Assembly (NCBI GenBank): GCA_021292105.1
Contig: CM037874.1
Coordinates: 39,968,404 to 40,032,403 of the forward strand
DNA length: 64,000 nt
Direction: 5' to 3'
From: Anadara kagoshimensis
Lineage: Eukaryota; Mollusca; Bivalvia; Arcoida; Arcidae
A program made the translations under genes and the position numbers. The notes below the pieces were generated by a model. That model did no database searches and was not told where the DNA came from. It saw nothing but the letters and a program-made list of their open reading frames with translations. Of the stretch, positions 7,595 to 61,299 are shown piece after piece (within the stretch, counting starts at the first letter, position 1; each line of letters starts with the position of its first letter).

Positions 7595-8380
7595 TTGTCT
7601 GCGCGTGAAATTTTGTTTGATGAATCAATGCGCTGGCCGGGTTGGCTATCCTACTGTCAAGAGTATGATAAGTCCAAACGCATCGGAGCATACAAAAAGT
7701 CATGGGAAGATGACAGGCCTTGGTTGTATGATACGCAGGACGGAATGAAGTGTGCTGTTTGTGTAGAGTTCGACAGGAAAAAATCTGTATTTACCGAGGG
7801 TTGCACTAGTTATAAACTTGACAGTGTAAATAAACATGAAATTTCTGAATCTCACAAACAGGCCCAAGCCTTAAGTAATGCAAAACAATTTCCTGCTCAT
7901 AAATCAAAAGCTGCCAAAATTATACAGTCATTGACATTGGTAATACCTATAGATCAACGTTTTCTGCAAAACTATTCGTCAATGTAATTGCAGATGTTGA
8001 ATATCGAAAAGTAAAGCAAGAGATAGAATAATCCAAATGTATATGCCTGATAGGAGATGAGAGCATATATTCTTCAATAAAATAGCAGGAAATGCGGTTT
8101 ATTCGCACTTGTAACAAAGGAAAAGTGGCAATTAACTTTGTAGGCATTGAATCAACAGAGAAAGTTAATGCTGAAAATATTGTTAATTGTTTTTATTCTA
8201 TATTGTCTACAAATTGAAAGTATGCAAAGAAGCATTTATTACCAAACTGGCAGCATTTTCTTGTGATGGTGCAGGTGTTATGGTAGGTTGTTGTGCTGGA
8301 GTTGGGGCCTTGTTGCGTTCAGATCAACCATCACTCTTGACAGTTCATTGTATGGCTCATCGAAAAGTTAAGCTCAATCC
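7595..8380 (+). pseudogene. Decayed hAT-type transposase (ZNF862-like) fragment
   Basis: Three adjoining frames read like consecutive pieces of a hAT-superfamily transposase. 7628-7987 (first ATG at 7628) holds an N-terminal BED/TTF-type zinc-finger pattern: W-L-Y-D-T, then C-A-V-C, then K-H-E-I-S-E-S-H, followed by a Lys/Ala-rich tail. About 8092-8214, in another frame, reads MRFIRTCNKGKVAINFVGIE up to a TGA. About 8215-8380, in a third frame, holds FSCDGAGVMVGCCAGVGALL and TVHCMAHR, matching the hAT catalytic-Asp motif (SDGAxVMxG) and the following HCxAHR motif. The frame changes and in-frame stops indicate a dead copy, although an intron between the first and second pieces (GTAATA near 7939) cannot be excluded. 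The DDE C-terminal and dimerisation parts are missing. It lies in the first intron of the predicted gene and was probably inserted as a transposon. Confidence 0.75.
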
Positions 8381-8827: not shown

Positions 8828-10221
8828 TTAGCTCACCTGAGCCAAAGGCTCAGATGAACAATTGTCATCTATCTTCATCCGTCTTGTATAAACTTTTTAG
8901 CTCACCTGAGCCAAAGGCTCAGACGAGCAATTGCCATCTATCTTCATCCGATGTGCGTCATGTGTAAACTTTTCACATTTTTTATCAATTCCTCCAAAAC
9001 TACAGAGCCAAATTGGATGATATTTGACAGTAATGATGCCTTAGTAAGGGGTTTTCAGATTTGCACAAATGCAAGGATTATGTCCCCTTGAGGCCCCATA
9101 AAGGGGAAATTTGTGAAAATCTTTAAAAATCATCTGCTCTGAACCTACAAGAGATATAACTTAGATATTTCATGTAAAACACTATGGGCACCTAGTTTTA
9201 GATTTGCACATATTGTAGCTGTAGGGGCCAAAATGAGATAATGGCAAGGTACTCGAGGGGGAAATTGCTAAATTAATGTATTTGTCAATATATTTGAAAA
9301 CTATAAGCTTTTTGTATGGGCATCATCATCATGTGTATTGGAATACTGTAGGCATTTGCACAACGGTCATTTTGATATATGAATAGAGGTCACAAGTTCA
9401 AAGGTCAAGGTCATAGATGTAAACGAATACTGAAATGGTTAACTATCTCAAAAACTATGAACTTTTTGTGTAGGCATGTATATTAGAATATTGTAGGCAT
9501 TTGCCTTACGGTCATTTCCATATATGAATGAAGGTCATAGGTTCAAAGGTCACGGTCATAGATGCAAACAAATACTGAAATGGTTAATTATCTCAAAAAT
9601 TATAAACCTTCTCTATAGGCATGTATATCAGAATGTTATAGGCATTTACACAATGTTCATTTTGATATATGAATGTAGGTCATAAGTCTAATGGTCAAGG
9701 TTATAGATGCAAATGAATACTGAAATGGTTAATTATCTTAAAAACTATAATCTTTTTGTATAGGCATATATGTTAGAATATTGTAGGTATTGGCCTAACG
9801 ATCATTTTGATATATGAATGAAGGACATGAGTTTTAAAGTCAAGGTCACTGATGCAAACAAATACTGACATGGTTAATTATCTCAAAAACTATAAACTGT
9901 TTGTATAGGCTTCTAAATTGTAGGTATTGACCTAATATTCATTGTGATATTTAGATTAAGGTCATGGGTTCAAATTTTTCTTTACCGTTTTAGTTGTTTA
10001 TAAACAATATATTGTAGCTTGATTTCAGATATGTTATATGTAGCATTCTTATGACTAGTTATGTTATAATAAATTTGCAAAAAATCCTTACATATAATTG
10101 GCCCTTACTGCTGAAAATTTATTTGGACATTCTCTTTAATTAATGTCAATGACCATTGAACCTCTGCTTGAGATATGTACTCAGCTGCATGTGAGCATTA
10201 AGGCTCATGGACCTCTTGTTT
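8828..10221 (+). repeat. Dispersed repeat family A, full-looking copy
   Basis: It begins TTAGCTCACCTGAGCC, has a second head 69 bp later (8897), and ends near GGACCTCTTGTTT. The middle (about 9280-9970) is itself tandem: a unit of about 148 bp with AACTATAAACTTTTTGTATAGG, GGCATTTGCC, a TCATTTTGATATATGAATG motif and GGTCAAGGTCATAGATGC is repeated about five times. Related copies occur at 40424, 49181/51298, 52711, 61300 (inverted), 63375 (inverted) and 63557. No open frame suggests a transposase, so class is unknown. Confidence 0.85.
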
Positions 10222-14302: not shown

Positions 14303-14429
14303 AACAAGAGCTGCTATTTCAGGAATTTATAGAATGGTGTCTCCCTAGTCAAGTTATGAATCAAACAAATTTTAAAGAATACATGAAGTTTAAAGGAGCA
14401 AAAGAAGAAATACTTGTTGATTTGTTTAG
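14303..14429 (+). CDS. EF-hand/PPP gene, exon (N-terminal helical part)
   Basis: A polypyrimidine-rich acceptor (TTTGTCTTGTAG|AACAAG) and a consensus donor (TTTAG|GTAAGG) bound 127 bp. After two bases completing a codon, the frame reads QELLFQEFIEWCLPSQ and continues to EEILVDLF with 41 whole codons and two bases left for the next Arg codon. The alternating hydrophobic pattern with F-Q-E-F and N-F-K-E-Y suggests EF-hand helices without an intact calcium loop. The residual phase joins exactly to the exon at 34349, nearly 20 kb away, where the fold continues as LFRSFDLH. I see no match to a named protein from this part alone. Confidence 0.85.
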
Positions 14430-16529
14430 GTAAGGTCTATAAAAGGACACGGTTTGAAATCAACTTCTTGTCATCATTATCATAAACATCATGGATTTGA
14501 TTGGTCATATTACTAACAGCTGTACTTAGTCAAGTCACTAAGTCTGAGATAGAACATGTCACAGTAACAGTTCTACTTAGTCAAGTCACTAAGTCTGAGA
14601 TAGATCATATCACAGTAACAGTTCTACTTAGTCAAGTCACTAAGTCTGAGATAGTACACCTCACAGTAACAGTTCTACTTAGTCAAGTCACTAAGTCTGA
14701 GATAGTACACCTCACAGTAACAGTTCTACTTAGTCAAGTCGCTAAGTCTGAGATAGTACCCCTCACAGTAACAGTTCTACTTAGTCAATCACTAAGTCTG
14801 AGACACCTCACAGTAACAGTTCTACTTAGTCAAGTCACTAAGTCTGAGATAGTACCCCTCACAGTAACAGTTCTACTTAGTCAAGTCACTAAGTCTGAGA
14901 TAGTACACCTCACAGTAACAGTTCTACTTAGTCAAGTCACTAAGTCTGAGATAGTACACCTCACAGTAACAGTTCTACTTAGTCAAGTCACTAAGTCTGA
15001 GATAGTACCCCTCACAGTAACAGTTCTACTTAGTCAAGTCACTAAGTCTGAGATAGTACACCTCACAGTAACAGTTCTACTTAGTCTAGTCACTAAGTCT
15101 GAGATAGTACCCCTCACAGTAACAGTTCTACTTAGTCAAGTCACTAAGTCTGAGATAGAATGTATCACAGTTACAGTTCTACTTAGTCAAGTCACTAAGT
15201 CTGAGATAGTACACCTCACAGTAACAGTTCTACTTAGTCAAGTCACTAAGTCTGAGATAGATCATATCACAGTAACAGTTCTACTTAGTCAAGTCACTAA
15301 GTCTGAGATAGAATGTATCACAGTTACAGTTCTACTTAATCAAGTCACTAAGTCTGAGATAGTACACCTCACAGTAACAGTTCTACTTAGTCAAGTCACT
15401 AAGTCTGAGATAGATCATATCACAGTAACAGTTCTTCTTAGTCAAGTCACTAAATCTGAGATATTACACCTCACAGTAACAGTTCTACTTAGTCAAGTCA
15501 CTAAGTCTGAGATAGTACCCCTCACAGTAACAGTTCTACTTAGTCAAGTCACTAAGTCTGAGATAGATCATATCACAGTAACAGTTCTACTTAGTCAAGT
15601 CACTAAGTCTGAGATAGTACCCCTCACAGTAACAGTTCTACTTAGTCAATCACTAAGTCTGAGATAGTACACCTCACAGTAACAGTTCTACTTAGTCAAG
15701 TCACTAAGTCTGAGATAGTACCCCTCACAGTAACAGTTCTACTTAGTCAAGTCACTACGTCTGAGATAGTACCCCTCACAGTAACAGTTCTACTTAGTCA
15801 AGTCACTAAGTCTGAGATAGTACACCTCACAGTAACAGTTCTACTTAGTCAAGTCACTAAGTCTGAGATAGTACCCCTCACAGTAACAGTTCTACTTAGT
15901 CAAGTCACTAAGTCTGAGATAGTACACCTCACAGTAACAGTTCTACTTAGTCAAGTCACTAAGTCTGAGATAGTACCCCTCACAGTAACAGTTCTACTTA
16001 GTCAAGTCACTAAGTCTGAGATAGTACACCTCACAGTAACAGTTCTACTTAGTCTAGTCACTAAGTCTGAGATAGTACCCCTCACAGTAACAGTTCTACT
16101 TAGTCAAGTTACTAAGTCTGAGATAGAATGTATCACAGTTACAGTTCTACTTAATCAAGTCACTAAGTCTGAGATATTACACCTCACAGTAACAGTTCTA
16201 CTTAGTCAAGTCACTAAGTCAGAGATAGAACATGTCACAGTAACAGTTCTACTTAGTCAAGTCACTAAGTCTGAGATAGTACACCTCACAGTAACAGTTC
16301 TACTTAGTCTAGTCACTAAGTCTGAGATAGTACCCCTCACAGTAACAGTTCTACTTAGTCAAGTCACTAAGTCTGAGATAGAATGTATCACAGTTACAGT
16401 TCTACTTAATCAAGTCACTAAGTCTGAGATATTACACCTCACAGTAACAGTTCTACTTAGTCAAGTCACTAAGTCTGAGATAAAATGTATCACAGTTACA
16501 GTTCTACTTAATCAAGTCACTAAGTCTGA

Positions 16530-19500
16530 GATAGAACATCTCACAGTAACAGTTCTACTTAGTCAAGTCACTAAGTCTGAGATAGATCATATCACAGTAA
16601 CAGTTCTACTTAGTCAAGTCACTAAGTCTGAGATAGAATGTATCACAGTAACAGTTCTACTTAGTCTAGTCACTAAGTCTGAGATAGTACACCTCACTGT
16701 AACAGTTCTACTTAGTCAAGTCACTAAGTCTGAGATAGTACCCCTCACAGTAACAGTTCTACTTAGTCAAGTCACTAAGTCTGAGATAGTACACCTCACA
16801 GTAACAGTTCTACTTAGTCTAGTCACTAAGTCTGAGATAGTACCCCTCACAGTAACAGTTCTACTTAGTCAAGTCACTAAGTCTGAGATAGAATGTATCA
16901 CAGTTACAGTTCTACTTAATCAAGTCACTAAGTCTGAGATAGTACACCTCACAGTAACAGTTCTACTAAGTCAAGTCACTAAGTCTGAGATAGATCATAT
17001 CACAGTAACAGTTCTACTTAGTCAAGTCACTAAGTCTGAGATAGAATGTATCACAGTTACAGTTCTACTTAATCAAGTCACTAAGTCTGAGATAGTACAC
17101 CTCACAGTAACAGTTCTACTTAGTCAAGTCACTAAGTCTGAGATAGATCATATCACAGTAACAGTTCTACTTAGTCAAGTCACTAAGTCTGAGATAGAAT
17201 GTATCACAGTAACAGTTCTACTTAGTCAAGTCACTAAGTCTGAGATAGATCATATCACAGTAACAGTTCTACTTAGTCAAGTCACTAAGTCTGAGATAGA
17301 ATGTATCACAGTTACAGTTCTACTTAATCAAGTCACTAAGTCTGAGATAGTACACCTCACAGTAACAGTTCTACTTAGTCAAGTCACTAAGTCTGAGATA
17401 GAACATGTCACAGTAACAGTTCTACTTAGTCAAGTCACTAAGTCTGAGATAGAATGTATCACAGTAACAGTTCTACTTAGTCAAGTCACTAAGTCTGAGA
17501 TAGAACATGTCACAGTAACAGTTCTACTTAGTCAAGTCACTAAGTCTGAGATAGAACATGTCACAGTAACAGTTCTACTTAGTCAAGTCACTAAGTCTGA
17601 GATAGAACATGTCACAGTAACAGTTCTACTTAGTCAAGTTACTAAGTCTGAGATAGAACATGTCACAGTAACAGTTCTACTTAGTCAAGTCACTAAGTCT
17701 GAGATAGAATGTATCACAGTAACAGTTCTACTTAGTCAAGTCACTAAGTCTGAGATAGTACCCCTCACAGTAACAGTTCTACTTAGTCAAGTCACTAAGT
17801 CTGAGATAGTACACCTCACAGTAACAGTTCTACTTAGTCAAGTCACTAAGTCTGAGATAGTACACCTCACAGTAACAGTTCTACTTAGTCAAGTCACTAA
17901 GTCTGAAATAGTACCCCTCACAGTAACAGTTCTAATTAGTCAAGTCACTAAGTCTGAGATAGTACACCTCACAGTAACAGTTCTACTTAGTCAAGTCACT
18001 AAGTCTGAGATAGTACCCCTCACAGTAACAGTTCTACTTAGTCAAGTCACTAAGTCTGAGATAGAACATCTCACAGTAACAGTTCTACTTAGTCAAGTCA
18101 CTAAGTCTGAGATAGATCATATCACAGTAACAGTTCTACTTAGTCAAGTCACTAAGTCTGAGATAGAATGTATCACAGTAACAGTTCTACTTAGTCTAGT
18201 CACTAAGTCTGAGATAGTACACCTCACAGTAACAGTTCTACTTAGTCAAGTCACTAAGTCTGAGATAGTACCCCTCACAGTAACAGTTCTACTTAGTCAA
18301 GTCACTAAGTCTGAGATAGTACACCTCACAGTAACAGTTCTACTTAGTCTAGTCACTAAGTCTGAGATAGTACCCCTCACAGTAACAGTTCTACTTAGTC
18401 AAGTCACTAAGTCTGAGATAGAATGTATCACAGTTACAGTTCTACTTAATCAAGTCACTAAGTCTGAGATAGTACACCTCACAGTAACAGTTCTACTAAG
18501 TCAAGTCACTAAGTCTGAGATAGATCATATCACAGTAACAGTTCTACTTAGTCAAGTCACTAAGTCTGAGATAGAATGTATCACAGTTACAGTTCTACTT
18601 AATCAAGTCACTAAGTCTGAGATAGTACACCTCACAGTAACAGTTCTACTTAGTCAAGTCACTAAGTCTGAGATAGATCATATCACAGTAACAGTTCTAC
18701 TTAGTCAAGTCACTAAGTCTGAGATAGAATGTATCACAGTAACAGTTCTACTTAGTCAAGTCACTAAGTCTGAGATAGATCATATCACAGTAACAGTTCT
18801 ACTTAGTCAAGTCACTAAGTCTGAGATAGAATGTATCACAGTTACAGTTCTACTTAATCAAGTCACTAAGTCTGAGATAGTACACCTCACAGTAACAGTT
18901 CTACTTAGTCAAGTCACTAAGTCTGAGATAGAACATGTCACAGTAACAGTTCTACTTAGTCAAGTCACTAAGTCTGAGATAGAATGTATCACAGTAACAG
19001 TTCTACTTAGTCAAGTCACTAAGTCTGAGATAGAACATGTCACAGTAACAGTTCTACTTAGTCAAGTCACTAAGTCTGAGATAGAACATGTCACAGTAAC
19101 AGTTCTACTTAGTCAAGTCACTAAGTCTGAGATAGAACATGTCACAGTAACAGTTCTACTTAGTCAAGTTACTAAGTCTGAGATAGAACAGTCACAGTAA
19201 CAGTTCTACTTAGTCAAGTCACTAAGTCTGAGATAGAATGTATCACAGTAACAGTTCTACTTAGTCAAGTCACTAAGTCTGAGATAGTACCCCTCACAGT
19301 AACAGTTCTACTTAGTCAAGTCACTAAGTCTGAGATAGTACACCTCACAGTAACAGTTCTACTTAGTCAAGTCACTAAGTCTGAGATAGTACACCTCACA
19401 GTAACAGTTCTACTTAGTCAAGTCACTAAGTCTGAAATAGTACCCCTCACAGTAACAGTTCTAATTAGTCAAGTCACTAAGTCTGAGATAGTACACCTCA

Positions 19501-19590
19501 CAGTAACAGTTCTACTTAGTCAAGTCACTAAGTCTGAGATAGTACCCCTCACAGTAACAGTTCTACTTAGTCAAGTCACTAAGTCTGAGA
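16530..19590. repeat. 30-unit (1530-bp) higher-order repeat, two copies
   Basis: Within the 51-bp array, the order of variant units from about 16530 to 18055 is repeated from about 18060 to 19585. Marker pairs lie 1530 or 1529 bases apart, for example GAACATGTCA at 17401 and 18931, and the CCCCTCACAG unit at 17761 and 19290. One base deletion near 19190 explains the one-base difference. Similarity breaks at both outer edges. Confidence 0.85.
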
Positions 19591-19599
19591 TAGTACACC

Positions 19600-21330
19600 T
19601 CACAGTAACAGTTCTACTTAGTCTAGTCACTAAGTCTGAGATAGTACCCCTCACAGTAACAGTTCTACTTAGTCAAGTCACTAAGTCTGAGGTAGAATGT
19701 ATCACAGTTACAGTTCTACTTAATCAAGTCACTAAGTCTGAGATAGTACACCTCACAGTAACAGTTCTACTTAGTCAAGTCACTAAGTCTGAGATAGATC
19801 ATATCACAGTAACAGTTCTACTTAGTCAAGTCACTAAGTCTGAGATAGATCATATCACAGTAACAGTTCTTCTTAGTCAAGTCACTAAGTCTGAGATAGA
19901 ACATCTCACAGTAACAGTTCTACTTAGTCAAGTCACTAAGTCTGAGATAGTACCCCTCACAGTAACAGTTCTACTTAGTCAAGTCACTAAGTCTGAGATA
20001 GTACACCTCACAGTAACAGTTCTACTTAGTCAAGTCACTAAGTCTGAGATAGTACCCCTCACAGTAACAGTTCTACTTAGTCAAGTCACTACGTCTGAGA
20101 TAGTACCCCTCACAGTAACAGTTCTACTTAGTCAAGTCACTAAGTCTGAGATAGTACACCTCACAGTAACAGTTCTACTTAGTCAAGTCACTAATTCTCA
20201 GATAGTACCCCTCACAGTAACAGTTCTACTTAGTCAAGTCACTAAGTCTGAGATAGTACACCTCACAGTAACAGTTCTACTTAGTCAAGTCACTAAGTCT
20301 GAGATAGAATGTATCACAGTAACAGTTCTACTTAGTCAAGTCACTAAGTCTGAGATAGTACACCTCACAGTAACAGTTCTACTTAGTCAAGTCACTAAGT
20401 CTGAGATAGTACCCCTCACAGTAACAGTTCTACTTAGTCAAGTCACTAAGTCTGAGATAGTACACCTCACAGTAACAGTTCTACTTAGTCTAGTCACTAA
20501 GTCTGAGATAGTACCCCTCACAGTAACAGTTCTACTTAGTCAAGTCACTAAGTCTGAGATAGAATGTATCACAGTTACAGTTCTACTTAATCAAGTCACT
20601 AAGTCTGAGATAGTACACCTCACAGTAACAGTTCTACTTAGTCAAGTCACTAAGTCTGAGATAGATCGTATCACAGTAACAGTTCTACTTAGTCAAGTCA
20701 CTAAGTCTGAGATAGATCATATCACAGTAACAGTTCTTCTTAGTCAAGTCACTAAGTCTGAGATAGAACATCTCACAGTAACAGTTCTACTTAGTCAAGT
20801 CACTAAGTCTGAGATAGTACCCCTCACAGTAACAGTTCTACTTAGTCAAGTCACTAAGTCTGAGATAGTACACCTCACAGTAACAGTTCTACTTAGTCAA
20901 GTCACTAAGTCTGAGATAGTACCCCTCACAGTAACAGTTCTACTTAGTCAAGTCACTACGTCTGAGATAGTACCCCTCACAGTAACAGTTCTACTACTTA
21001 GTCAAGTCACTAAGTCTGAGATAGTACACCTCACAGTAACAGTTTACTTAGTCAAGTCACTAATTCTCAGATAGTACCCCTCACAGTAACAGTTCTACTT
21101 AGTCAAGTCACTAAGTCTGAGATAGTACCCTCACAGTAACAGTTTCTACTTAGTCAAGTCACTAAGTCTGAGATAGTACACCTCACAGTAACAGTTCTAC
21201 TTAGTCTAGTCACTAAGTCTGAGATAGTACCCTCACAGTAACAGTTCTACTTAATCAAGTCACTAAGTCTGAGATAGAATGTATCACAGTTACAGTTCTA
21301 CTTAATCAAGTCACTAAGTCTGAGATATTA
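19600..21330. repeat. 17-unit (867-bp) higher-order repeat, two copies
   Basis: Rare variants recur at 867-base spacing: CAGTTCTTCTTAG at 19864 and 20731, and CACTACGTCTGAG at 20088 and 20954. TAATTCTCAG recurs near 20190 and 21060. The second copy carries small insertions and deletions (CTACTACTTAG near 20993, AGTTTACTTAG near 21043). Confidence 0.8.
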
Positions 21331-21835
21331 CACCTCACAGTAACAGTTCTACTTAGTCAAGTCACTAAGTCTGAGATAGATCATATCACAGTAACAGTTC
21401 TACTTAGTCAAGTCACTAAGTCTGAGATAGAATGTATCACAGTTACAGTTCTACTTAATCAAGTCACTAAGTCTGAGATAGAACATCTCACAGTAACAGT
21501 TCTACTTAGTCAAGTCACTAAGTCTGAGATAGATCATATCACAGTAACAGTTCTACTTAGTCAAGTCACTAAGTCTGAGATAGAATGTATCACAGTTACA
21601 GTTCTACTTAATCAAGTCACTAAGTCTGAGATAGTACACCTCACAGTAACAGTTCTACTTAGTCAAGTCACTAAGTCTGAGATAGTACCCCTCACAGTAA
21701 CAGTTCTACTTAGTCAAGTCACTAAGTCTGAGATAGTACACCTCACAGTAACAGTTCTACTTAGTCTAGTCACTAAGTCTGAGATAGTACCCCTCACAGT
21801 AACAGTTTACTTAGTCAAGTCACTAAGTCTGAGAT

Positions 21836-24800
21836 AGAATGTATCACAGTTACAGTTCTACTTAATCAAGTCACTAAGTCTGAGATAGAACATCTCACAG
21901 TAACAGTTCTACTTAGTCAAGTCACTAAGTCTGAGATAGATCATATCACAGTAACAGTTCTACTTAGTCAAGTCACTAAGTCTGAGATAGAATGTATCAC
22001 AGTAACAGTTCTACTTAGTCTAGTCACTAAGTCTGAGATAGTACACCTCACAGTAACAGTTCTACTTAGTCAAGTCACTAAGTCTGAGATAGAATGTATC
22101 ACAGTTACAGTTCTACTTAATCAAGTCACTAAGTCTGAGATAGAACATCTCACAGTAACAGTTCTACTTAGTCAAGTCACTAAGTCTGAGATAGATCATA
22201 TCACAGTAACAGTTCTACTTAGTCAAGTCACTAAGTCTGAGATAGAATGTATCACAGTAACAGTTCTACTTAGTCTAGTCACTAAGTCTGAGATAGTACA
22301 CCTCACAGTAACAGTTCTACTTAGTCAAGTCACTAAGTCTGAGATAGTACCCCTCACAGTAACAGTTCTACTTAGTCAAGTCACTAAGTCTGAGATAGTA
22401 CACCTCACAGTAACAGTTCTACTTAGTCTAGTCACTAAGTCTGAGATAGTACCCCTCACAGTAACAGTTCTACTTAGTCAAGTCACTAAGTCTGAGATAG
22501 AATGTATCACAGTTACAGTTCTACTTAATCAAGTCACTAAGTCTGAGATAGTACACCTCACAGTAACAGTTCTACTTAGTCAAGTCACTAAGTCTGAGAT
22601 AGAATGTATCACAGTTACAGTTCTACTTAATCAAGTCACTAAATCTGAGATAGTACACCTCACACAGTAACAGTTCTACTTAGTCAAGTCACTAAGTCTG
22701 AGATAGATCATATCACAGTAACAGTTCTACTTAGTCAAGTCACTAAGTCTGAGATAGAATGTATCACAGTAACAGTTCTACTTAGTCAAGTCACTAAGTC
22801 TGAGATAGATCATATCACAGTAACAGTTCTACTTAGTCAAGTCACTAAGTCTGAGATAGAATGTATCACAGTTACAGTTCTACTTAATGAAGTCACTAAG
22901 TCTGAGATAGTACACCTCACAGTAACAGTTCTACTTAGTCAAGTCACTAAGTCTGAGATAGAACATGTCACAGTAACAGTTCTACTTAGTCAAGTCACTA
23001 AGTCTGAGATAGAATGTATCACAGTAACAGTTCTACTTAGTCAAGTCACTAAGTCTGAGATAGAACATGTCACAGTAACAGTTCTACTTAGTCAAGTCAC
23101 TAAGTCTGGGATAGAACATGTCACAGTAACAGTTCTACTTAAACAAGTCACTAAGTCTGAGATAGAATGTATCACAGTAACAGTTCTACTTAGTCAAGTC
23201 ACTAAGTCTGAGATAGTACCCCTCACAGTAACAGTTCTACTTAGTCAAGTCACTAAGTCTGAGATAGTACACCTCAAAGTAACAGTTCTACTTAGTCAAG
23301 TCACTAAGTCTGAGATAGAATGTATCACAGTTACAGTTCTACTTAATCAAGTCACTAAGTCTGAGATAGAACATCTCACAGTAACAGTTCTACTTAGTCA
23401 AGTCACTAAGTCTGAGATAGATTCATATCACAGTAACAGTTCTACTTAGTCAAGTCACTAAGTCTGAGATAGAATGTATCACAGTAACAGTTCTACTTAG
23501 TCTAGTCACTAAGTCTGAGATAGTACACCTCACAGTAACAGTTCTACTTAGTCAAGTCACTAAGTCTGAGATAGTACCCCTCACAGTAACAGTTCTACTT
23601 AGTCAAGTCACTAAGTCTGAGATAGTACACCTCACAGTAACAGTTCTACTTAGTCTAAGTCACTAAGTCTGAGATAGTACCCCTCACAGTAACAGTTCTA
23701 CTTAGTCAAGTCACTAAGTCTGAGATAGAATGTATCACAGTTACAGTTCTACTTAGTCAAGTCACTAAGTCTGAGATAGTACACCTCACAGTAACAGTTC
23801 TACTTAGTCAGTCACTAAGTCTGAGATAGATCATATCACAGTAACAGTTCTACTTAGTCAAGTCACTAAGTCTGAGATAGAATGTATCACAGTTACAGTT
23901 CTACTTAATCAAGTCACTAAATCTGAGATAGTACACCTCACAGTAACAGTTCTACTTAGTCAAGTCACTAAGTCTGAGATAGATCATATCACAGTAACAG
24001 TTCTACTTAGTCAAGTCACTAAGTCTGAGATAGAATGTATCACAGTAACAGTTCTACTTAGTCAAGTCACTAAGTCTGAGATAGATCATATCACAGTAAC
24101 AGTTCTACTTAGTCAAGTCACTAAGTCTGAGATAGAATGTATCACAGTACAGTTCTACTTAATCAAGTCACTAAGTCTGAGATAGTACACCTCACAGTAA
24201 CAGTTCTACTTAGTCAAGTCACTAAGTCTGAGATAGAACATCACAGTAACAGTTCTACTTAGTCAAGTCACTAAGTCTGAGATAGATGTATCACAGTAAC
24301 AGTTCTACTTAGTCAAGTCACTAAGTCTGAGATAGAACATGTCACAGTAACAGTTCTACTTAGTCAAGTCACTAAGTCTGGATAGAACATGTCACAGTAA
24401 CAGTTCTACTTAGTCAAGTCACTAAGTCTGAGATAGTACACCTCACAGTAACAGTTCTACTTAGTCAAGTCACTAAGTCTGAGATAGAATGTATACAGTA
24501 ACAGTTCTACTTAGTCAAGTCACTAAGTCTGAGATAGATCATATCACAGTAACAGTTCTACTTAGTCAAGTCACTAAGTCTGAGATAGACATATCACAGT
24601 AACAGTTCTACTAGTCAAGTCACTAAGTCTGAGATAGATCATCCAGTAACAGTTCTACTTAGTCAAGTCACTAAGTCTGAGATAGAACATGTCACAGTAA
24701 CAGTTCTACTTAGTCAAGTCACTAAGTCTGAGATAGAATGTATCACAGTTACAGTTCTACTTAATCAAGTCACTAAGTCTGAGATAGTACACCTCACAGT

Positions 24801-27800
24801 AACAGTTCTACTTAGTCAAGTCACTAAGTCTGAGATAGAACATCACAGTAACAGTTCTACTTAGTCAAGTCACTAAGTCTGAGATAGAATATCACAGTAA
24901 CAGTTCTACTTAGTCAAGTCACTAAGTCTGAGATAGAACATGTCACAGTAACAGTTCTACTTAGTCAAGTGACTAAGTCTGAGATAGAACATGTCACAGT
25001 AACAGTTCTACTTAGTCAAGTCACTAAGTCTGAGATAGAATGTATCACAGTAACAGTTCTACTTAGTCAAGTCACTAAGTCTGAGATAGTACCCCTCACA
25101 GTAACAGTTCTACTTAGTCAAGTCACTAAGTCTGAGATAGTACACCTCACAGTAACAGTTCTACTTAGTCAAGTCACTAAGTCTGAGATAGTACACCTCA
25201 CAGTAACAGTTCTACTTAGTCAAGTCACTAAGTCTGAGATAGTACCCCTCACAGTAACAGTTCTAATTAGTCAAGTCACTAAGTCTGAGATAGTACACCT
25301 CACAGTAACAGTTCTACTTAGTCAAGTCACTAAGTCTGAGATAGAATGTATTACAGTAACAGTTCTACTTAGTCAAGTCACTAAGTCTGAGATAGAATGT
25401 ATTACAGTAACAGTTCTACTTAGTCAAGTCACTAAGTCTGAGATAGAATGTATCACAGTTACAGTTCTACTTAATCAAGTCACTAAGTCTGAGATAGAAC
25501 ATCTCACAGTAACAGTTCTACTTAGTCAAGTCACTAAGTCTGAGATAGATCATATCACAGTAACAGTTCTACTTAGTCAAGTCACTAAGTCTGAGATAGA
25601 ATGTATCACAGTAACAGTTCTACTTAGTCTAGTCACTAAGTCTGAGATAGTACACCTCACAGTAACAGTTCTACTTAGTCAAGTCACTAAGTCTGAGATA
25701 GAATGTATCACAGTTACAGTTCTACTTAATCAAGTCACTAAGTCTGAGATAGAACATCTCACAGTAACAGTTCTACTTAGTCAAGTCACTAAGTCTGAGA
25801 TAGATCATATCACAGTAACAGTTCTACTTAGTCAAGTCACTAAGTCTGAGATAGAATGTATCACAGTAACAGTTCTACTTAGTCTAGTCACTAAGTCTGA
25901 GATAGTACACCTCACAGTAACAGTTCTACTTAGTCAAGTCACTAAGTCTGAGATAGTACCCCTCACAGTAACAGTTCTACTTAGTCAAGTCACTAAGTCT
26001 GAGATAGTACACCTCACAGTAACAGTTCTACTTAGTCTAGTCACTAAGTCTGAGATAGTACCCCTCACAGTAACAGTTCTACTTAGTCAAGTCACTAAGT
26101 CTGAGATAGAATGTATCACAGTTACAGTTCTACTTAATCAAGTCACTAAGTCTGAGATAGTACACCTCACAGTAACAGTTCTACTTAGTCAAGTCACTAA
26201 GTCTGAGATAGAATGTATCACAGTACAGTTCTACTTAATCAAGTCACTAAATCTGAGATAGTACACCTCACAGTAACAGTTCTACTTAGTCAAGTCACTA
26301 AGTCTGAGATAGATCATATCACAGTAACAGTTCTACTTAGTCAAGTCACTAAGTCTGAGATAGAATGTATCACAGTAACAGTTCTACTTAGTCAAGTCAC
26401 TAAGTCTGAGATAGATCATATCACAGTAACAGTTCTACTTAGTCAAGTCACTAAGTCTGAGATAGAATGTATCACAGTTACAGTTCTACTTAATGAAGTC
26501 ACTAAGTCTGAGATAGTACACTCACAGTAACAGTTCTTACTTAGTCAAGTCACTAAGTCTGAGATAGAACATGTCACAGTAACAGTTCTACTTAGTCAAG
26601 TCACTAAGTCTGAGATAGAATGTATCACAGTAACAGTTCTACTTAGTCAAGTCACTAAGTCTGAGATAGAACATGTCACAGTAACAGTTCTACTTAGTCA
26701 AGTCACTAAGTCTGGGATAGAACATGTCACAGTAACAGTTCTACTTAAACAAGTCACTAAGTCTGAGATAGAATGTATCACAGTAACAGTTCTACTTAGT
26801 CAAGTCACTAAGTCTGAGATAGTACCCCTCACAGTAACAGTTCTACTTAGTCAAGTCACTAAGTCTGAGATAGTACACCTCAAAGTAACAGTTCTACTTA
26901 GTCAAGTCACTAAGTCTGAGATAGAATGTATCACAGTTACAGTTCTACTTAATCAAGTCACTAAGTCTGAGATAGAACATCTCACAGTAACAGTTCTACT
27001 TAGTCAAGTCACTAAGTCTGAGATAGATCATATCACAGTAACAGTTCTACTTAGTCAAGTCACTAAGTCTGAGATAGAATGTATCACAGTAACAGTTCTA
27101 CTTAGTCTAGTCACTAAGTCTGAGATAGTACACCTCACAGTAACAGTTCTACTTAGTCAAGTCACTAAGTCTGAGATAGTACCCCTCACAGTAACAGTTC
27201 TACTTAGTCAAGTCACTAAGTCTGAGATAGTACACCTCACAGTAACAGTTCTACTTAGTCTAGTCACTAAGTCTGAGATAGTACCCCTCACAGTAACAGT
27301 TCTACTTAGTCAAGTCACTAAGTCTGAGATAGAATGTATCACAGTTACAGTTCTACTTAATCAAGTCACTAAGTCTGAGATAGTACACCTCACAGTAACA
27401 GTTTACTTAGTCAAGTCACTAAGTCTGAGATAGATCATATCACAGTAACAGTTCTACTTAGTCAAGTCACTAAGTCTGAGATAGAATGTATCACAGTTAC
27501 AGTTCTACTTAATCAAGTCACTAAATCTGAGATAGTACACCTCACAGTAACAGTTCTACTTAGTCAAGTCACTAAGTCTGAGATAGATCATATCACAGTA
27601 ACAGTTCTACTTAGTCAAGTCACTAAGTCTGAGATAGAATGTATCACAGTAACAGTTCTACTTAGTCAAGTCACTAAGTCTGAGATAGATCATATCACAG
27701 TAACAGTTCTACTTAGTCAAGTCACTAAGTCTGAGATAGAATGTATCACAGTTACAGTTCTACTTAATCAAGTCACTAAGTCTGAGATAGTACACCTCAC

Positions 27801-30800
27801 AGTAACAGTTCTACTTAGTCAAGTCACTAAGTCTGAGATAGAACATGTCACAGTACAGTTCTACTTAGTCAAGTCACTAAGTCTGAGATAGAATATCACA
27901 GTAACAGTTCTACTTAGTCAAGTCACTAAGTCTGAGATAGAACATGTCACAGTAACAGTTCTACTTAGTCAAGTCACTAAGTCTGGATAGAACATGTCAC
28001 AGTAACAGTTTAATTAGTCAAGTCACTAAGTCTGAGATAGTACACCTCACAGTAACAGTTCTACTTAGTCAAGTCACTAAGTCTGAGATAGAATGTATTA
28101 CAGTAACAGTTCTACTTAGTCAAGTCACTAAGTCTGAGATAGATCATATCACAGTAACAGTTCTACTTAGTCAAGTCACTAAGTCTGAGATAGAACATAT
28201 CACAGTAACAGTTCTACTTAGTCAAGTCACTAAGTCTGAGATAGATCATATCCCAGTAACAGTTCTACTTAGTCAAGTCACTAAGTCTGAGATAGAACAT
28301 GTCACAGTAACAGTTCTACTTAGTCAAGTCACTAAGTCTGAGATAGAATGTATCACAGTTACAGTTCTACTTATCAAGTCACTAAGTCTGAGATAGTACA
28401 CCTCACAGTAACAGTTCTACTTAGTCAAGTCACTAAGTCTGAGATAGAACATGTCACAGTAACAGTTCTACTTAGTCAAGTCACTAAGTCTGAGATAGAA
28501 TGTATCACAGTAACAGTTCTACTTAGTCAAGTCACTAAGTCTGAGATAGAACATGTCACAGTAACAGTTCTACTTAGTCAAGTGACTAAGTCTGAGATAG
28601 AACATGTCACAGTAACAGTTCTACTTAGTCAAGTCACTAAGTCTGAGATAGAATGTATCACAGTAACAGTTCTACTTAGTCAAGTCACTAAGTCTGAGAT
28701 AGTACCCTCACAGTAACAGTTCTACTTAGTCAAGTCACTAAGTCTGAGATAGTACACCTCACAGTAACAGTTCTACTTAGTCAAGTCACTAAGTCTGAGA
28801 TAGTACACCTCACAGTAACAGTTCTACTAGTCAAGTCACTAAGTCTGAGATAGTACCCTCACAGTAACAGTTCTATTAGTCAAGTCACTAAGTCTGAGAT
28901 AGTACACCTCACAGTAACAGTTCTACTTAGTCAAGTCACTAAGTCTGAGATAGAATGTATTACAGTAACAGTTCTACTTAGTCAAGTCACTAAGTCTGAG
29001 ATAGAATGTATACAGTAACAGTTCTACTTAGTCAAGTCACTAAGTCTGAGATAGAAGTATCACAGTTACAGTTCTACTTATCAAGTCACTAAGTCTGAGA
29101 TAGAACATCTCACAGTAACAGTTCTACTTAGTCAAGTCACTAAGTCTGAGATAGATCATATCACAGTAACAGTTCTACTTAGTCAAGTCACTAAGTCTGA
29201 GATAGAATGTATCACAGTAACAGTTCTACTTAGTCTAGTCACTAAGTCTGAGATAGTACACCTCACAGTAACAGTTCTACTTAGTCAAGTCACTAAGTCT
29301 GAGATAGAATGTATCACAGTACAGTTCTACTTATCAAGTCACTAAGTCTGAGATAGAACATCTCACAGTAACAGTTCTACTTAGTCAAGTCACTAAGTCT
29401 GAGATAGATCATATCACAGTAACAGTTCTACTTAGTCAAGTCACTAAGTCTGAGATAGAATGTATCACAGTAACAGTTCTACTTAGTCTAGTCACTAAGT
29501 CTGAGATAGTACACCTCACAGTAACAGTTCTACTTAGTCAAGTCACTAAGTCTGAGATAGTACCCTCACAGTAACAGTTCTACTTAGTCAAGTCACTAAG
29601 TCTGAGATAGTACACCTCACAGTAACAGTTCTACTTAGTCTAGTCACTAAGTCTGAGATAGTACCCCTCACAGTAACAGTTCTACTTAGTCAAGTCACTA
29701 AGTCTGAGATAGAATGTATCACAGTACAGTTCTACTTATCAAGTCACTAAGTCTGAGATAGACACCTCACAGTAACAGTTCTACTTAGTCAAGTCACTAA
29801 GTCTGAGATAGAATGTATCACAGTTACAGTTCTACTTAATCAAGTCACTAAATCTGAGATAGTACACCTCACAGTAACAGTTCTACTTAGTCAAGTCACT
29901 AAGTCTGAGATAGATCATATCACAGTAACAGTTCTACTTAGTCAAGTCACTAAGTCTGAGATAGAATGTATCACAGTAACAGTTCTACTTAGTCAAGTCA
30001 CTAAGTCTGAGATAGATCATATCACAGTAACAGTTCTACTTAGTCAAGTCACTAAGTCTGAGATAGAATGTATCACAGTTACAGTTCTACTTAATGAAGT
30101 CACTAAGTCTGAGATAGTACACCTCACAGTAACAGTTCTACTTAGTCAAGTCACTAAGTCTGAGATAGAACATGTCACAGTAACAGTTCTACTTAGTCAA
30201 GTCACTAAGTCTGAGATAGAATGTATCACAGTAACAGTTCTACTTAGTCAAGTCACTAAGTCTGAGATAGAACATGTCACAGTAACAGTTCTACTTAGTC
30301 AAGTCACTAAGTCTGGGATAGAACATGTCACAGTAACAGTTCTACTTAAACAAGTCACTAAGTCTGAGATAGAATATCACAGTAACAGTTCTACTTAGTC
30401 AAGTCACTAAGTCTGAGATAGTACCCTCACAGTAACAGTTCTACTTAGTCAAGTCACTAAGTCTGAGATAGTACACCTCAAAGTAACAGTTCTACTTAGT
30501 CAAGTCACTAAGTCTGAGATAGAATGTATCACAGTTACAGTTCTACTTAATCAAGTCACTAAGTCTGAGATAGAACATCTCACAGTAACAGTTCTACTTA
30601 GTCAAGTCACTAAGTCTGAGATAGATCATATCACAGTAACAGTTCTACTTAGTCAAGTCACTAAGTCTGAGATAGAATGTATCACAGTAACAGTTCTACT
30701 TAGTCTAGTCACTAAGTCTGAGATAGTACACCTCACAGTAACAGTTCTACTTAGTCAAGTCACTAAGTCTGAGATAGTACCCCTCACAGTAACAGTTCTA

Positions 30801-32660
30801 CTTAGTCAAGTCACTAAGTCTGAGATAGTACACCTCACAGTAACAGTTCTACTTAGTCTAGTCACTAAGTCTGAGATAGTACCCCTCACAGTAACAGTTC
30901 TACTTAGTCAAGTCACTAAGTCTGAGATAGAATGTATCACAGTTACAGTTCTACTTAATCAAGTCACTAAGTCTGAGATAGTACACCTCACAGTAACAGT
31001 TCTACTTAGTCAAGTCACTAAGTCTGAGATAGATCATATCACAGTAACAGTTCTACTTAGTCAAGTCACTAAGTCTGAGATAGAATGTATCACAGTTACA
31101 GTTCTACTTAATCAAGTCACTAAATCTGAGATAGTACACCTCACAGTAACAGTTCTACTTAGTCAAGTCACTAAGTCTGAGATAGATCATATCACAGTAA
31201 CAGTTCTACTTAGTCAAGTCACTAAGTCTGAGATAGAATGTATCACAGTACAGTTCTACTTAGTCAAGTCACTAAGTCTGAGATAGATCATATCACAGTA
31301 ACAGTTCTACTTAGTCAAGTCACTAAGTCTGAGATAGAATGTATCACAGTTACAGTTCTACTTAATCAAGTCACTAAGTCTGAGATAGTACACCTCACAG
31401 TAACAGTTCTACTTAGTCAAGTCACTAAGTCTGAGATAGAACATGTCACAGTAACAGTTCTACTTAGTCAAGTCACTAAGTCTGAGATAGAATGTATCAC
31501 AGTAACAGTTCTACTTAGTCAAGTCACTAAGTCTGAGATAGAACATGTCACAGTAACAGTTCTACTTAGTCAAGTCACTAAGTCTGGGATAGAACATGTC
31601 ACAGTAACAGTTCTAATTAGTCAAGTCACTAAGTCTGAGATAGTACACCTCACAGTAACAGTTCTACTTAGTCAAGTCACTAAGTCTGAGATAGAATGTA
31701 TTACAGTAACAGTTCTACTTAGTCAAGTCACTAAGTCTGAGATAGATCATATCACAGTAACAGTTCTACTTAGTCAAGTCACTAAGTCTGAGATAGAACA
31801 TATCACAGTAACAGTTCTACTTAGTCAAGTCACTAAGTCTGAGATAGATCATATCCCAGTAACAGTTCTACTTAGTCAAGTCACTAAGTCTGAGATAGAA
31901 CATGTCACAGTAACAGTTCTACTTAGTCAAGTCACTAAGTCTGAGATAGAATGTATCACAGTTACAGTTCTACTTAATCAAGTCACTAAGTCTGAGATAG
32001 TACACCTCACAGTAACAGTTCTACTTAGTCAAGTCACTAAGTCTGAGATAGAACATGTCACAGTAACAGTTCTACTTAGTCAAGTCACTAAGTCTGAGAT
32101 AGAATGTATCACAGTAACAGTTCTACTTAGTCAAGTCACTAAGTCTGAGATAGAACATGTCACAGTAACAGTTCTACTTAGTCAAGTGACTAAGTCTGAG
32201 ATAGAACATGTCACAGTAACAGTTCTACTTAGTCAAGTCACTAAGTCTGAGATAGAATGTATCACAGTAACAGTTCTACTTAGTCAAGTCACTAAGTCTG
32301 AGATAGTACCCCTCACAGTAACAGTTCTACTTAGTCAAGTCACTAAGTCTGAGATAGTACACCTCACAGTAACAGTTCTACTTAGTCAAGTCACTAAGTC
32401 TGAGATAGTACACTCACAGTAACAGTTCTACTTAGTCAAGTCACTAAGTCTGAGATAGTACCCCTCACAGTAACAGTTCTAATTAGTCAAGTCACTAAGT
32501 CTGAGATAGTACACCTCACAGTAACAGTTCTACTTAGTCAAGTCACTAAGTCTGAGATAGAATGTATTACAGTAACAGTTCTACTTAGTCAAGTCACTAA
32601 GTCTGAGATAGATCATATCACAGTAACAGTTCTACTTAGTCAAGTCACTAAGTCTGAGAT
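21836..32660. repeat. ~71-unit (~3.6-kb) higher-order repeat, three copies
   Basis: Three consecutive blocks start near 21836, 25445 and 29055. Private markers recur in each: TACTTAATGAAGTC at 22881, 26487 and 30088; TACTTAAACAAGTC at 23137, 26742 and 30343; ACCTCAAAGTAAC at 23271, 26877 and 30475; AGTGACTAAG near 24969, 28582 and 32186. Spacings of 3598-3613 are close to 71 x 51, less a few small deletions. The copies are near identical. Confidence 0.85.
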
Positions 32661-33403
32661 AGAACATATCACAGTAACAGTTCTACTTAGTCAAGTCACT
32701 AAGTCTGAGATAGATCATATCCCAGTAACAGTTCTACTTAGTCAAGTCACTAAGTCAGAGATAGAACATGTCACAGTAACAGTTCTACTTAGTCAAGTCA
32801 CTAAGTCTGAGATAGAACATATCACAGTAACAGTTCTACTTAGTCAAGTCACTAAGTCTGAGATAGATCATATCCCAGTAAAAGTTCTACTTAGTCAAGT
32901 CACTAAGTCAGAGATAGAACATGTCACAGTAACAGTTCTACTTAGTCAAGTCACTAAGTCTGAGATAGAACATATCACAGTAACAGTTCTACTTAGTCAA
33001 GTCACTAAGTCTGAGATAGATCATATCCCAGTAACAGTTCTACTTAGTCAAGTCACTAAGTCTGAGATAGAACATATCACAGTAACAGTTCTACTTAGTC
33101 AAGTCACTAAGTCAGAGATAGAACATGTCACAGTAACAGTTCTACTTAGTCAAGTCACTAAGTCTGAGATAGATCATATCCCAGTAACAGTTCTACTTAG
33201 TCAAGTCACTAAGTCTGAGATAGAACATGTCACAGTAACAGTTCTACTTAGTCAAGTCACTAAGTCTGAGATAGAATGTATCACAGTAACAGTTCTACTT
33301 AGTCAAGTCACTAAGTCTGAGATAGAATGTATCCCAGTAACAGTTCTACTTAGTCAAGTCACTAAGTCAGAGATAGAACATATCACAGTAACAGTTCTAC
33401 TTA

Positions 33404-33865
33404 TGGCATGGTGAAGTGTGCTTGTGTGATCTTCTTTTCTGAAATAAGGTGGCTAATTGAAAGCAAACTTGATGTGGAAGATTCTAAAGTTTGAATAAGG
33501 CCACTCAGTATGATATCCAAGATGGCCACTATTACTGTGAACAGTAAAATCACTAAAATGACCATTGTGGATTGAATTTCCAACTGATTTTTTTTTCAAA
33601 TTTGACTAATAGGAAGAAGATACCTGGCAATTTAGCATATATAACAGGTTGTTTGAGACATTTTTCATGAACCAATTTCAGCAAATTATGCAAATTGGGT
33701 CAAATTTTTAGCCATTTCATTGAAAATCTTCTGCTCAGAAACCATCATGCGAATTCAGACCAAATATGGTGTGGAAGGTCCCTAGGTGGGGTAGTTTAAA
33801 TTTTATTAAAGACAACCTCGTACAGTATCTAAGATGACCGTCATTACTATAAATAGCCAAATAGT
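33404..33865. repeat. Repeat family B fragment at the array's right edge
   Basis: The array stops at CTTATGGCATGGTGAAGTGTG, and from there the sequence resembles the family-B phrase GAGCTTATGGCATGGTGAAG at 51649-51668 and GAGCTTATGGCGAGGTG at 34697-34714. So the 51-bp array is fused to, or grew inside, a family-B element. The remainder is non-coding. Confidence 0.6.
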
Positions 33866-34300
33866 AAAATGGGCCATTGTGGATTCAATTTTCTACCAAT
33901 TGTGTTCAAATTTAAAATAAAGAATTTCAAAGCAGATACTTGGCCGTTTGACATATCAAAAGAGGTTTTCTGAGACATTTTTCAATGGCCCTATTTTAGG
34001 AAAATATGCCAAAAATGGGCCATTGTGGATTCAATTTTCTACCAATTGTGTTCAAATTTAAAATAAAGAATTTCAAAGCAGATACTTGGCCGTTTGACAT
34101 ATCAAAAGAGGTTTTCTGAGAATTTTTCAATGGCCCTATTTTAGGAAAATATGCCAAAAATGGGCCATTGTGGATTCAATTTTCTACCAATTGTGTTCAA
34201 ATTTAAAATAAAGAATTTCAAAGCAGATACTTGGCCGTTTGACATATCAAAAGAGGTTTTCTGAGATATTTTTCAATGGCCCTATTTTAGGAAAATATGC
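33866..34300. repeat. 145-bp tandem repeat, three copies
   Basis: AAAATGGGCCATTGTGGATT begins near 33866, 34012 and 34156, each time followed by TTCTACCAATTGTGTTC, CAAAGCAGATACTTGGCCG and ACATATCAAAAGAGG up to TTTTAGGAAAATATGC. The copies are almost identical, indicating recent duplication. The block lies about 50 bases upstream of the exon at 34349. Confidence 0.95.
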
Positions 34301-34348
34301 ATTACAGGCCCTTGTATATTTTATTGTTTTTTTTTAATTTAATTTCAG

Positions 34349-34522
34349 GTCTTTTGATTTACACAAGAGAAAAATGATAAATTTTAAAGAGATGCTGATG
34401 GGATTGGCTGCACTAGAGCCCAGTACACAACATGGTGGTATGCCAGCAGAGATGAGATGTAGATATATATTCAGATATTATGATACAAACTCTGATGGAC
34501 AATTACAATTTGAGGAATTCAA
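34349..34522 (+). CDS. EF-hand/PPP gene, exon with canonical EF-hand
   Basis: Acceptor TTTAATTTCAG and donor AA|GTGAGT bound 174 bp (57 codons plus split codons). Residues 45-56 of the exon form a complete EF-hand loop, DTNSDGQLQFEE: Asp at positions 1 and 5, Asn at 3, Gly at 6, Leu at 8, Glu at 12. It is preceded by the helix RCRYIFRYY and followed by FKRM in the next exon. A degenerate loop (DLHKRKMINFKE, residues 3-14) keeps the terminal Glu but lacks the acidic ligands. The pairing of a degenerate and a canonical hand about 42 residues apart is typical of EF-hand pairs in calcineurin-B/recoverin-like folds. So this exon supplies the calcium sensor of the protein. It is the strongest single coding call in the window. 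Confidence 0.95.
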
Positions 34523-34910: not shown

Positions 34911-34994
34911 GCGAATGGTTCGAGATATTCGAGTTTTAAAAGGCTTACCTGTAGATGAAGACTCGGTTAATGATGATGCGGTAAAAAGTGCCAA
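34911..34994 (+). CDS. EF-hand/PPP gene, exon after the EF-hand
   Basis: Acceptor TTTAATTTTAG and donor CCAA|GTAGGT bound 84 bp. The first base completes the Lys codon from the previous exon; the frame reads RMVRDIRVLKGLPVDEDSVN and continues to VKSA. The beginning completes the exiting helix of the canonical EF-hand (FEEFKRMVRDIR). The remainder is an acidic linker. Phase 1/2 joins are consistent on both sides. Confidence 0.9.
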
Positions 34995-55260: not shown

Positions 55261-55798
55261 TCCTCTCTAGAACAAGTTTTAGCTACATTGGAGTTTGAGA
55301 TATCTCCGTCTCACTTTGCGACTATTGTAGCATTCCTTTTCTTACTCATTTGCAACCTAAAACATGTTTTAATACCACCATCCTTGTCTTAAAATAATGT
55401 AATCAGTATTTGTTGACGTTCTTGCATAACATTTTTATGATACCATCAATTTAGTTTGTGTAAATGAGTGTGATGTTAGGGTTAGGAAAGTGATCCCACC
55501 CTAGAGAAATCCTGCAATAAAAAATCAACAGTTACAACCTGAAAACTCTGTCTGTTGTTGACAATTCCTAAATCTACATGGTTAAACTCATTTTTGCTAA
55601 TGATCATTTTTAAATATGATTTACATAGACATCATTGCCATGTTTGTTAAATTTAACTTGTCACATGAGCAGAAATGGAGGAAAATGATTATCATAGGTG
55701 ATTGTTAATACCTATGTATGAAGCAAAGCAGTTTAAATTTCTGCATCTTTATTTGATACAAAAACCATTGTTATGTTCTTGACAGATAGACATTCACT
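55261..55798. other. Intronic, nothing recognised
   Basis: AT-rich sequence between repeat D and the 19-bp minisatellite. No exon seen. Confidence 0.4.
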
Positions 55799-56515
55799 AA
55801 TGTACAGTGACATGTGTAATGTACAGTAACATGTGTAATGTACAGTAACATGTGTGATGTACAGTCATGTGTAATGCACAGTAACATGTGTAATGTACAG
55901 TAACATGTGTAATGTACAGTAACATGTGTAATGTACAGTCATGTGTAATGCACAGTAACATGTGTAATGTACAGTAACATGTGTAATGCACAGTAACATG
56001 TGTAATGTACAGTCATGTGTAATGCACAGTAACATGTGTAATGTACAGTAACATGTGTAATGTACAGTAACATGTGTAATGTACAGTAACATGTGTAATG
56101 TACAGTAACATGTGTAATGTACAGTAACATGTGTAATGCACAGTAACATGTGTAATGTACAGTCATGTGTAATGCACAGTAACATGTGTAATGTACAGTA
56201 ACACGTGTAATGTACAGTCATGTGTAATATACAGTAACATGTGTAATGTACAGTAACATGTGTAATGTACAGTAACATGTGTGATGTACAGTAACATGTG
56301 TGATGTACAGTAACATGTGTAATGTACAGTAACATGTGTAATGTACAGTAACATGTGTGATGTACAGTCATGTGTAATGTACAGTAACATGTGTAATGTA
56401 CAGTAACATGTGTAATGTACAGTAACATGTGTGATGCACAGTAACATGTGTAATGTACAGTAACATGTGTAATGTACAGTAACATGTGTAATGTACAGTA
56501 ACATGTGTAATGTAC
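55799..56515. repeat. 19-bp minisatellite, ~38 units
   Basis: The unit is ACAGTAACATGTGTAATGT (19 bp), with a recurrent short variant ACAGTCATGTGTAATGC/T lacking bases of the TAACA part, and A/G and T/C variants (GTGATGT, AATGCAC). It ends with TGTACTTATTGTATTTTCAG, so the array stops about 15 bases before the acceptor of the exon at 56531 and occupies its polypyrimidine/branch-point zone. The Cys/His/Thr-rich minus-strand frames are artefacts. Confidence 0.97.
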
Positions 56516-61140: not shown

Positions 61141-61299
61141 TCATTGCTCGGAAAATGACAAAATTAACTCTGGACAATATTCATTCTTTATTTCATTGAA
61201 AATCACTCTTCTGAACAAAAACACCACATCATTTGTTAATTTACAAAACATGGTTAAACTGGAATTACTGGAATGTAACCATTGAAAGCAAAAACCTAT

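Follow-up and report, generated by a model that had tools for sequence, protein, structure and literature searches.

How does a tandem array of nearly 19 kb come to lie inside an intron, and to what kind of repeat does it belong? The question is raised by a 64,000-nucleotide stretch of the genome of the bivalve Anadara kagoshimensis (assembly GCA_021292105.1, contig CM037874.1, positions 39,968,404 to 40,032,403, forward strand), which we call the window. Positions without a prefix count from its first letter, and those with the prefix C18 refer to the contig, on which the window is C18:39968404-40032403. We consider it likely that the array is an intronic minisatellite private to its locus, in all likelihood a variable number tandem repeat (VNTR), in an EF-hand gene that probably also has a PPP-family phosphatase domain.

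The array and its host gene

The array, which we call array A, runs from 14514 to 33403 on the forward strand (18,890 bp) and is delimited by Tandem Repeats Finder (TRF), by splitting into units and by a genome-wide pattern search. TRF describes it with a period of 51, 371.3 copies, 92% matches and a score of 30454, and anchor-based splitting likewise yields 371 units, of which 327 are exactly 51 bp long. A tandem unit of this length in an uninterrupted array lies within the size range of minisatellites, roughly 10 to 100 bp. The array makes up 94.8% of a 19,919-bp intron, in agreement with a preliminary description of this DNA in which about 370 copies of a 51-bp unit fill nearly all of a 19.9-kb intron. 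The same description called the array uniform, which it is not: there are 52 exact types among the 51-bp units, and the units are arranged in a nested block structure. Among the 44 units of other lengths 19 have 50 bp, and 27 are found at 24-25 kb and 27-30 kb; some odd-length units, such as pairs of 62 and 38 bp, are a product of the anchor-based splitting.

The host intron spans 14430 to 34348 on the forward strand, opening with GTAAGG (GT donor at 14430) and closing with TTTCAG (AG acceptor at 34348), and both the reading frame and an EF-hand domain continue across it. On its upstream side there is a coding exon of the EF-hand region at 14303 to 14429 (127 bp, forward strand), whose last codon is split between AG and G and which has an open frame, AG/GT borders and matches to PF13499 and hippocalcin. 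On the downstream side the exon at 34349 to 34522 (174 bp, forward strand) encodes an EF-hand loop, as judged from its frame and from the PF13499 and hippocalcin matches of the joined exons. After it comes a third coding exon of this gene at 34911 to 34994 (84 bp, forward strand), which has an open frame and AG/GT borders, and all three exons are mutually in phase. The translation of the joined exons matches the EF-hand Pfam family PF13499 (E 4.9e-15) over residues 39-105, with the splice junction at about residue 43, and its best PDB match is hippocalcin, whose alignment over residues 6-108 spans the junction. Because protein homology runs across the junction and the splice borders are in place, the array is intronic as far as the sequence can tell. 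The preliminary description had placed it so, and its remark that the exons are all shorter than 180 bp holds for the three seen around the array.

The gene appears to extend beyond the window. A PP1 catalytic sequence, used as a query against 321.6 kb, finds four PPP pieces within C18:40033440-40050295, on the strand of the exons (E 1.2e-5, 8e-4, 1e-3 and 0.02), the nearest lying about 1 kb beyond the window. They include the motifs GDIHG, GDYVDRG and RGNHE, which we take to be hallmarks of the PPP family. A span of 67.6 kb thus contains EF-hands followed by PPP motifs, all on one strand. Since the PPP pieces lie so close to the window and the flanking exons contain an EF-hand domain, the host is probably an EF-hand/PPP-family phosphatase gene, which would span at least 67.6 kb if all pieces share one transcript. 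Two putative exons near 40.3 and 41.2 kb, which lie between the exon at 34911 and the PPP pieces, match no Pfam family and have no PDB match better than E 0.5, and we leave them unassigned.

We also asked whether the array could be a coding exon itself. The 51-bp unit is a multiple of three and would keep the frame, one frame would stay open as a 17-residue repeat (TVLLSQVTKSEIxxxTV), and open reading frames (ORFs) of up to 430 amino acids cross the array. The variants of the unit show no clear synonymous bias, however: 52 distinct variants comprise 17 synonymous, 34 non-synonymous and 1 stop, against 39, 110 and 4 of the 153 possible, and it is on this spectrum that we rejected the coding candidate. 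Against it stand also the repeated breaks of the frame by single-base indels, some of which may be assembly errors, and the flanking exons, which form one EF-hand domain without the array. We find a coding array hardly credible.

A function at the RNA level finds no more encouragement. One three-unit stretch is no more stable than its shuffles (z 0.86 on the forward and -0.38 on the reverse strand), and no Rfam family reaches its gathering score anywhere in the window. Twelve of the 51 unit positions are invariant among the 327 units, which is not above the approximately 18 that we estimate for 52 random variants, and we claim no sequence constraint within the unit. With no clear synonymous excess, no unusual stability in the RNA stretch folded and no Rfam family, we do not favour a sequence-specific function. 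The intronic minisatellite would be transcribed within the pre-mRNA and removed by ordinary splicing, and most likely has no function that depends on its sequence. An effect of its length on transcription or splicing is possible, as described for an intronic VNTR of a human gene (PMC13131567), and any influence on the gene would then act through transcription time or splicing efficiency.

Distribution of the unit and growth of the array

A locus-private minisatellite and a satellite family should differ in how widely the unit is found. We searched the whole genome (1,115,223,567 bases in 36 contigs) with a 26-bp core of the unit, allowing up to 3 mismatches, and obtained 465 forward matches, no reverse matches and none for a control pattern. 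All 465 are located: 361 in C18:39958404-40242403, every one of them within array A, and 104 in C18:40250001-40270000. The latter belong to a second array, array B, at C18:40259147-40264689, which has 109.3 copies (TRF). A near-identical copy of the region is present 276 kb downstream, and array B occupies the corresponding intron there. The core pattern detects 361 of the 371 units of array A and 104 of the 109 units of array B, and it would miss relatives that differ from the core at more than 3 positions. At this sensitivity the 51-bp unit looks private to one locus and its near-identical duplicate. Confinement of this kind is what is expected of a VNTR, with all 465 matches in two arrays; classical satellite DNA would occupy many loci or heterochromatic blocks, and there are zero matches at up to 3 mismatches beyond the two arrays.

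The same result bears on an origin from a mobile element, in which the array would descend from the internal tandem repeat of a Helitron- or Helentron-like element inserted in the intron, as in oysters. Some satellites of Crassostrea gigas are associated with such elements (PMC8268682). In the window, a 145-bp repeat adjoins the array at 33866 to 34300 (forward strand, TRF), with three tandem copies between array and acceptor here and two in the second copy of the region. However, a repeat carried by elements would be expected at many loci between their termini, and all 465 matches of the 51-bp unit fall at a single locus and its duplicate (element termini were not searched for). We therefore regard this origin as quite improbable.

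The order of the units tells how the minisatellite may have grown. We sorted the 371 units of array A and the 109 units of array B into 20 common types, here called unit classes. In array A the longest runs of identical unit classes shared between separate places are 36, 29, 20 and 15 units long, and the best of 200 shuffles gives 7; 246 of the 371 units lie in runs of at least 8 that are duplicated elsewhere in the array, with a mean of 0.16 and a maximum of 16 in 100 shuffles. The best lag is 71 units (0.43) and the next is 142 (0.34), while the shuffled maximum has a mean of 0.23 and a highest value of 0.39 in 200 shuffles. The lag statistic is weak by itself, and the evidence for blocks rests on the run lengths and on block alignments.

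These alignments reveal three sets of duplicated blocks, all on the forward strand. The largest is a higher-order block of 71 units (3.6 kb) in three consecutive copies: units 143-213 at 21799 to 25407, units 214-284 at 25408 to 29015 and units 285-355 at 29016 to 32623. Copy 1 has 24 mismatches to copy 2 and 13 to copy 3, and copies 2 and 3 differ by 3 mismatches; between pairs of copies there are 22 to 26 indel events, and two control block pairs differ by 248 and 216 substitutions. A block of 30 units occurs as units 40-69 at 16547 to 18076 and again as units 70-98 at 18077 to 19554, as seen from unit classes and alignment. Its two copies share 29 consecutive identical unit classes and differ by 1 mismatch and 52 gap bases in 2 events, the second copy being one unit shorter. 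The alignment furthermore identifies a block of 17 units, found as units 98-114 at 19504 to 20370 (unit 98 is shared with the preceding block) and as units 115-131 at 20371 to 21238, with 8 mismatches and 5 gap events between the two.

Could the length of the array be largely an artefact, in which the assembler triplicated the 71-unit block or collapsed array B? The last two 71-unit copies, with their 3 substitutions, are separated by 26 indel events, which looks like leftover long-read error, and the clustering of odd-length units (27 of 44) at 24-25 and 27-30 kb points the same way. On the other hand, the 24 and 13 substitutions that set copy 1 apart show that one sequence was not simply written three times. 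Nor is array B a mere collapse of array A: there are 52 exact 51-bp types in array A and 30 in array B with 14 in common, so that 16 of the 30 in array B are absent from array A, and array B has its own unit order. An artefact of this extent is in our opinion unlikely.

Arrays A and B share the same four unit classes at the start and, near the 3' end, a string of eight classes. Inside, the two differ. An alignment of the unit order of array B with that of array A reaches a score of 27, compared with at most 7 in 100 shuffles of array B. Given the duplicated runs, the shared terminal orders and the differing interiors, array A has thus grown largely through block duplication, with ends that are more stable. 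Exactly identical neighbours form runs of at most 3 units in both arrays, and neighbours of the same class runs of at most 5 in array A and 4 in array B. With identical-neighbour runs as short as these, unit-by-unit slippage seems not to have been the main process. The preliminary description had noted that the cassette variants are common to the whole length of the array, which our unit classification bears out, and had concluded on repeated internal exchange. The sharing of variants is real, but the conclusion is too vague, as a few block duplications (71 units three times, about 30 twice and about 17 twice) explain much of it. We propose that the minisatellite was born at this locus from a 51-bp seed, and that it would have grown by block-wise unequal exchange or by template-switch repair.

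Two copies of the region

Whether the arrays are alleles depends on what the second copy of the region is. The copy number differs strongly between the two near-identical copies, 371 in array A and 109 in array B. In 7 chosen blocks we counted 117 substitutions in 27,215 aligned columns (0.43%), a count that leaves out the arrays, large insertions and some blocks, including a 1.2-kb block at 98.2%. The same 7 blocks contain 78 indel events, 60 of them of 1 bp, and 45 of these 60 occur in homopolymer runs. In the three exons the copies are free of substitutions, and in the copy around array B the first exon has two 1-bp indels, which break the reading frame of an otherwise substitution-free exon. 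Several insertions of kilobase size distinguish the copies. Between them there is a gap of 1000 N at C18:40117241, with no further N up to C18:40280000. Colinearity holds over almost the whole of two 3-kb probes, one pairing C18:40212404 with C18:39938858 (99%) and the other C18:40364646 with C18:40095404 (98%). From the third base on, the first 2 kb beyond the gap agree at 100% with C18:39837342, near the place that colinearity predicts (an offset of 281 kb compared with 269-276 kb elsewhere).

Because a gap separates the copies and 1-bp indels are frequent, we read them as two haplotypes placed in series: the second copy is probably the other haplotype of the sequenced animal left in the assembly, which would make the arrays alleles, or perhaps a real duplication instead. 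In the latter case a tandem segmental duplication of roughly 275 kb would have produced two paralogous genes with arrays of different length. The two copies are indeed found on a single chromosome-scale contig and share their orientation, their substitution divergence is just 0.43% in the blocks counted, and two upstream matches at 100% to the sequence after the gap (C18:39837342 and C18:39762171) may hint at more duplication, though this sequence is a dispersed repeat. Such a duplication fits less well with a gap of 1000 N, as would result from overlapping contigs placed end to end, with the high proportion of single-base indels (60, against 117 substitutions), or with the two frame-shifting indels in the substitution-free exon, of the kind that a poorly polished haplotig would show. 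The kilobase insertions also speak against it, since insertions of this size are common between haplotypes. We hold segmental duplication to be possible and rather less probable than the allelic reading.

Several points weigh against our interpretation of a VNTR with two alleles. A divergence of 0.43% suits alleles and a recent segmental duplication alike. Left-out blocks at C18:40234730-40237319 are more diverged, with only 92-97% identity to the copy around array A. The 2 kb after the gap also match C18:39762171 at 100% and many places at up to 89%, which marks them as a dispersed repeat and makes them a weak test. Indel noise is visible in the assembly, and the exact length of the array is subject to this uncertainty. 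Finally, the transcription of the array and the splicing across it are predicted from the genomic sequence.

The 2-kb stretch of dispersed repeat just mentioned is present in three nearly identical copies within 356 kb, at C18:39762171, C18:39837342 and C18:40118241. Stacking of haplotype contigs, real duplication and recent insertion are all conceivable origins. For users of this assembly it matters that near-identical duplicates of 275 kb may be haplotypes, in which case gene counts would be inflated.

Neighbouring repeats and known systems

The array is not alone in its neighbourhood. Of the 321,597 contiguous bases around the window, which include parts of both region copies and are not a random sample of the genome, 31% are tandem repeat, with other arrays of 16.4, 9.9, 4.3 and 3.5 kb. 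Given this share and these further long arrays, array A is the largest of a local crowd of minisatellites and not an isolated oddity. The preliminary description had thought such an array unusual in its setting, a view that is not supported, given the long minisatellites nearby and a human intronic one of the same size (PMC13131567).

Among the neighbours, a 24-bp unit in about 692 copies occupies C18:40127033-40143462 (16.4 kb), and within 400 bp there follows an array of a 68-bp unit in 142 copies. A 19-bp unit at 55798 to 56515 has 38.4 copies, compared with 31.4 in the second copy of the region. A 145-bp tandem repeat forms short arrays at 9330 to 9910 and at 61366 to 61970 (with the consensus in opposite orientation) and several more in C18:39958404-40280000, some of which sit in stretches found in only one region copy. 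An ORF of 130 codons at 7595 to 7987 presumably resembles a TTF-type/hAT-like zinc-finger region.

A second long minisatellite lies at 56827 to 61141, with a unit of 37 bp in 117 copies (TRF), and its counterpart in the second copy of the region, from C18:40291461 onward, has at least 123. Genome-wide, its pattern gives 232 forward, no reverse and no control matches, 102 of them in C18:39958404-40280000, 109 in 6 kb of the second copy and 21 without a location; as far as tested, it is private to its locus. The 21 unplaced matches may lie where the second 37-bp array extends beyond the stretch examined. The 37-bp array is probably in another intron of the same host gene. This leads to a tentative generalisation, about which we remain doubtful: in this genome giant minisatellites, each with a private unit, may arise de novo at single loci inside introns and grow as blocks of dozens of units are copied at a time, with the result that the transcribed intron differs in length by more than 13 kb between alleles of one gene. 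Privacy was tested for two arrays only, the 51-bp and the 37-bp array.

Our literature search found no close case in bivalves, and we do not claim that none is in print. In Crassostrea gigas, satellite families are scattered over chromosomes and many loci, beyond heterochromatin, and some have Helitron boxes (PMC8268682). The 51-bp unit is unlike them in being at one locus and its duplicate, and like them in not being restricted to heterochromatin. Two human VNTRs are further parallels. The ABCA7 VNTR has a GC-rich unit of 25 bp and expanded alleles of up to about 10 kb (PMC6857246), and is called intronic and splicing-affecting in the title of a reference cited there. It resembles our array in being a long VNTR and differs in its GC-rich 25-bp unit, and an effect is claimed for ABCA7 only.

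The second parallel is TRACT, a VNTR with a 30-bp unit in an intron of human CACNA1C, which reaches 3 to more than 30 kb and whose long alleles show an association with reduced expression in testis and fibroblasts (PMC13131567). Like TRACT, the array is a long intronic minisatellite, kilobases to tens of kilobases in size, and a mosaic of unit variants. Alleles of TRACT differ greatly in length and unit make-up, and the same would apply to arrays A and B if they are alleles. The unit and the host gene are unrelated. The mode of growth seems to differ as well: TRACT expansion was attributed to perfect tracts of identical units, of up to 26 units, whereas here exactly identical runs do not exceed 3 units in either array (class runs 5 and 4), and blocks of about 17, 30 and 71 units are duplicated. 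We do not present block duplication as a new mode, because tandem duplication of long stretches at TRACT has already been proposed by another study cited in PMC13131567.

The array could serve to test whether the length of an intron by itself alters gene expression. Its growth record of block duplications, shared ends and different interiors makes the expansion mode of very long intronic minisatellites readable. By analogy, we suggest that the array is the same kind of thing as the known human intronic VNTRs of CACNA1C and ABCA7, and probably an invertebrate counterpart to them, whose unit is private and whose interior preserves a record of how it grew.

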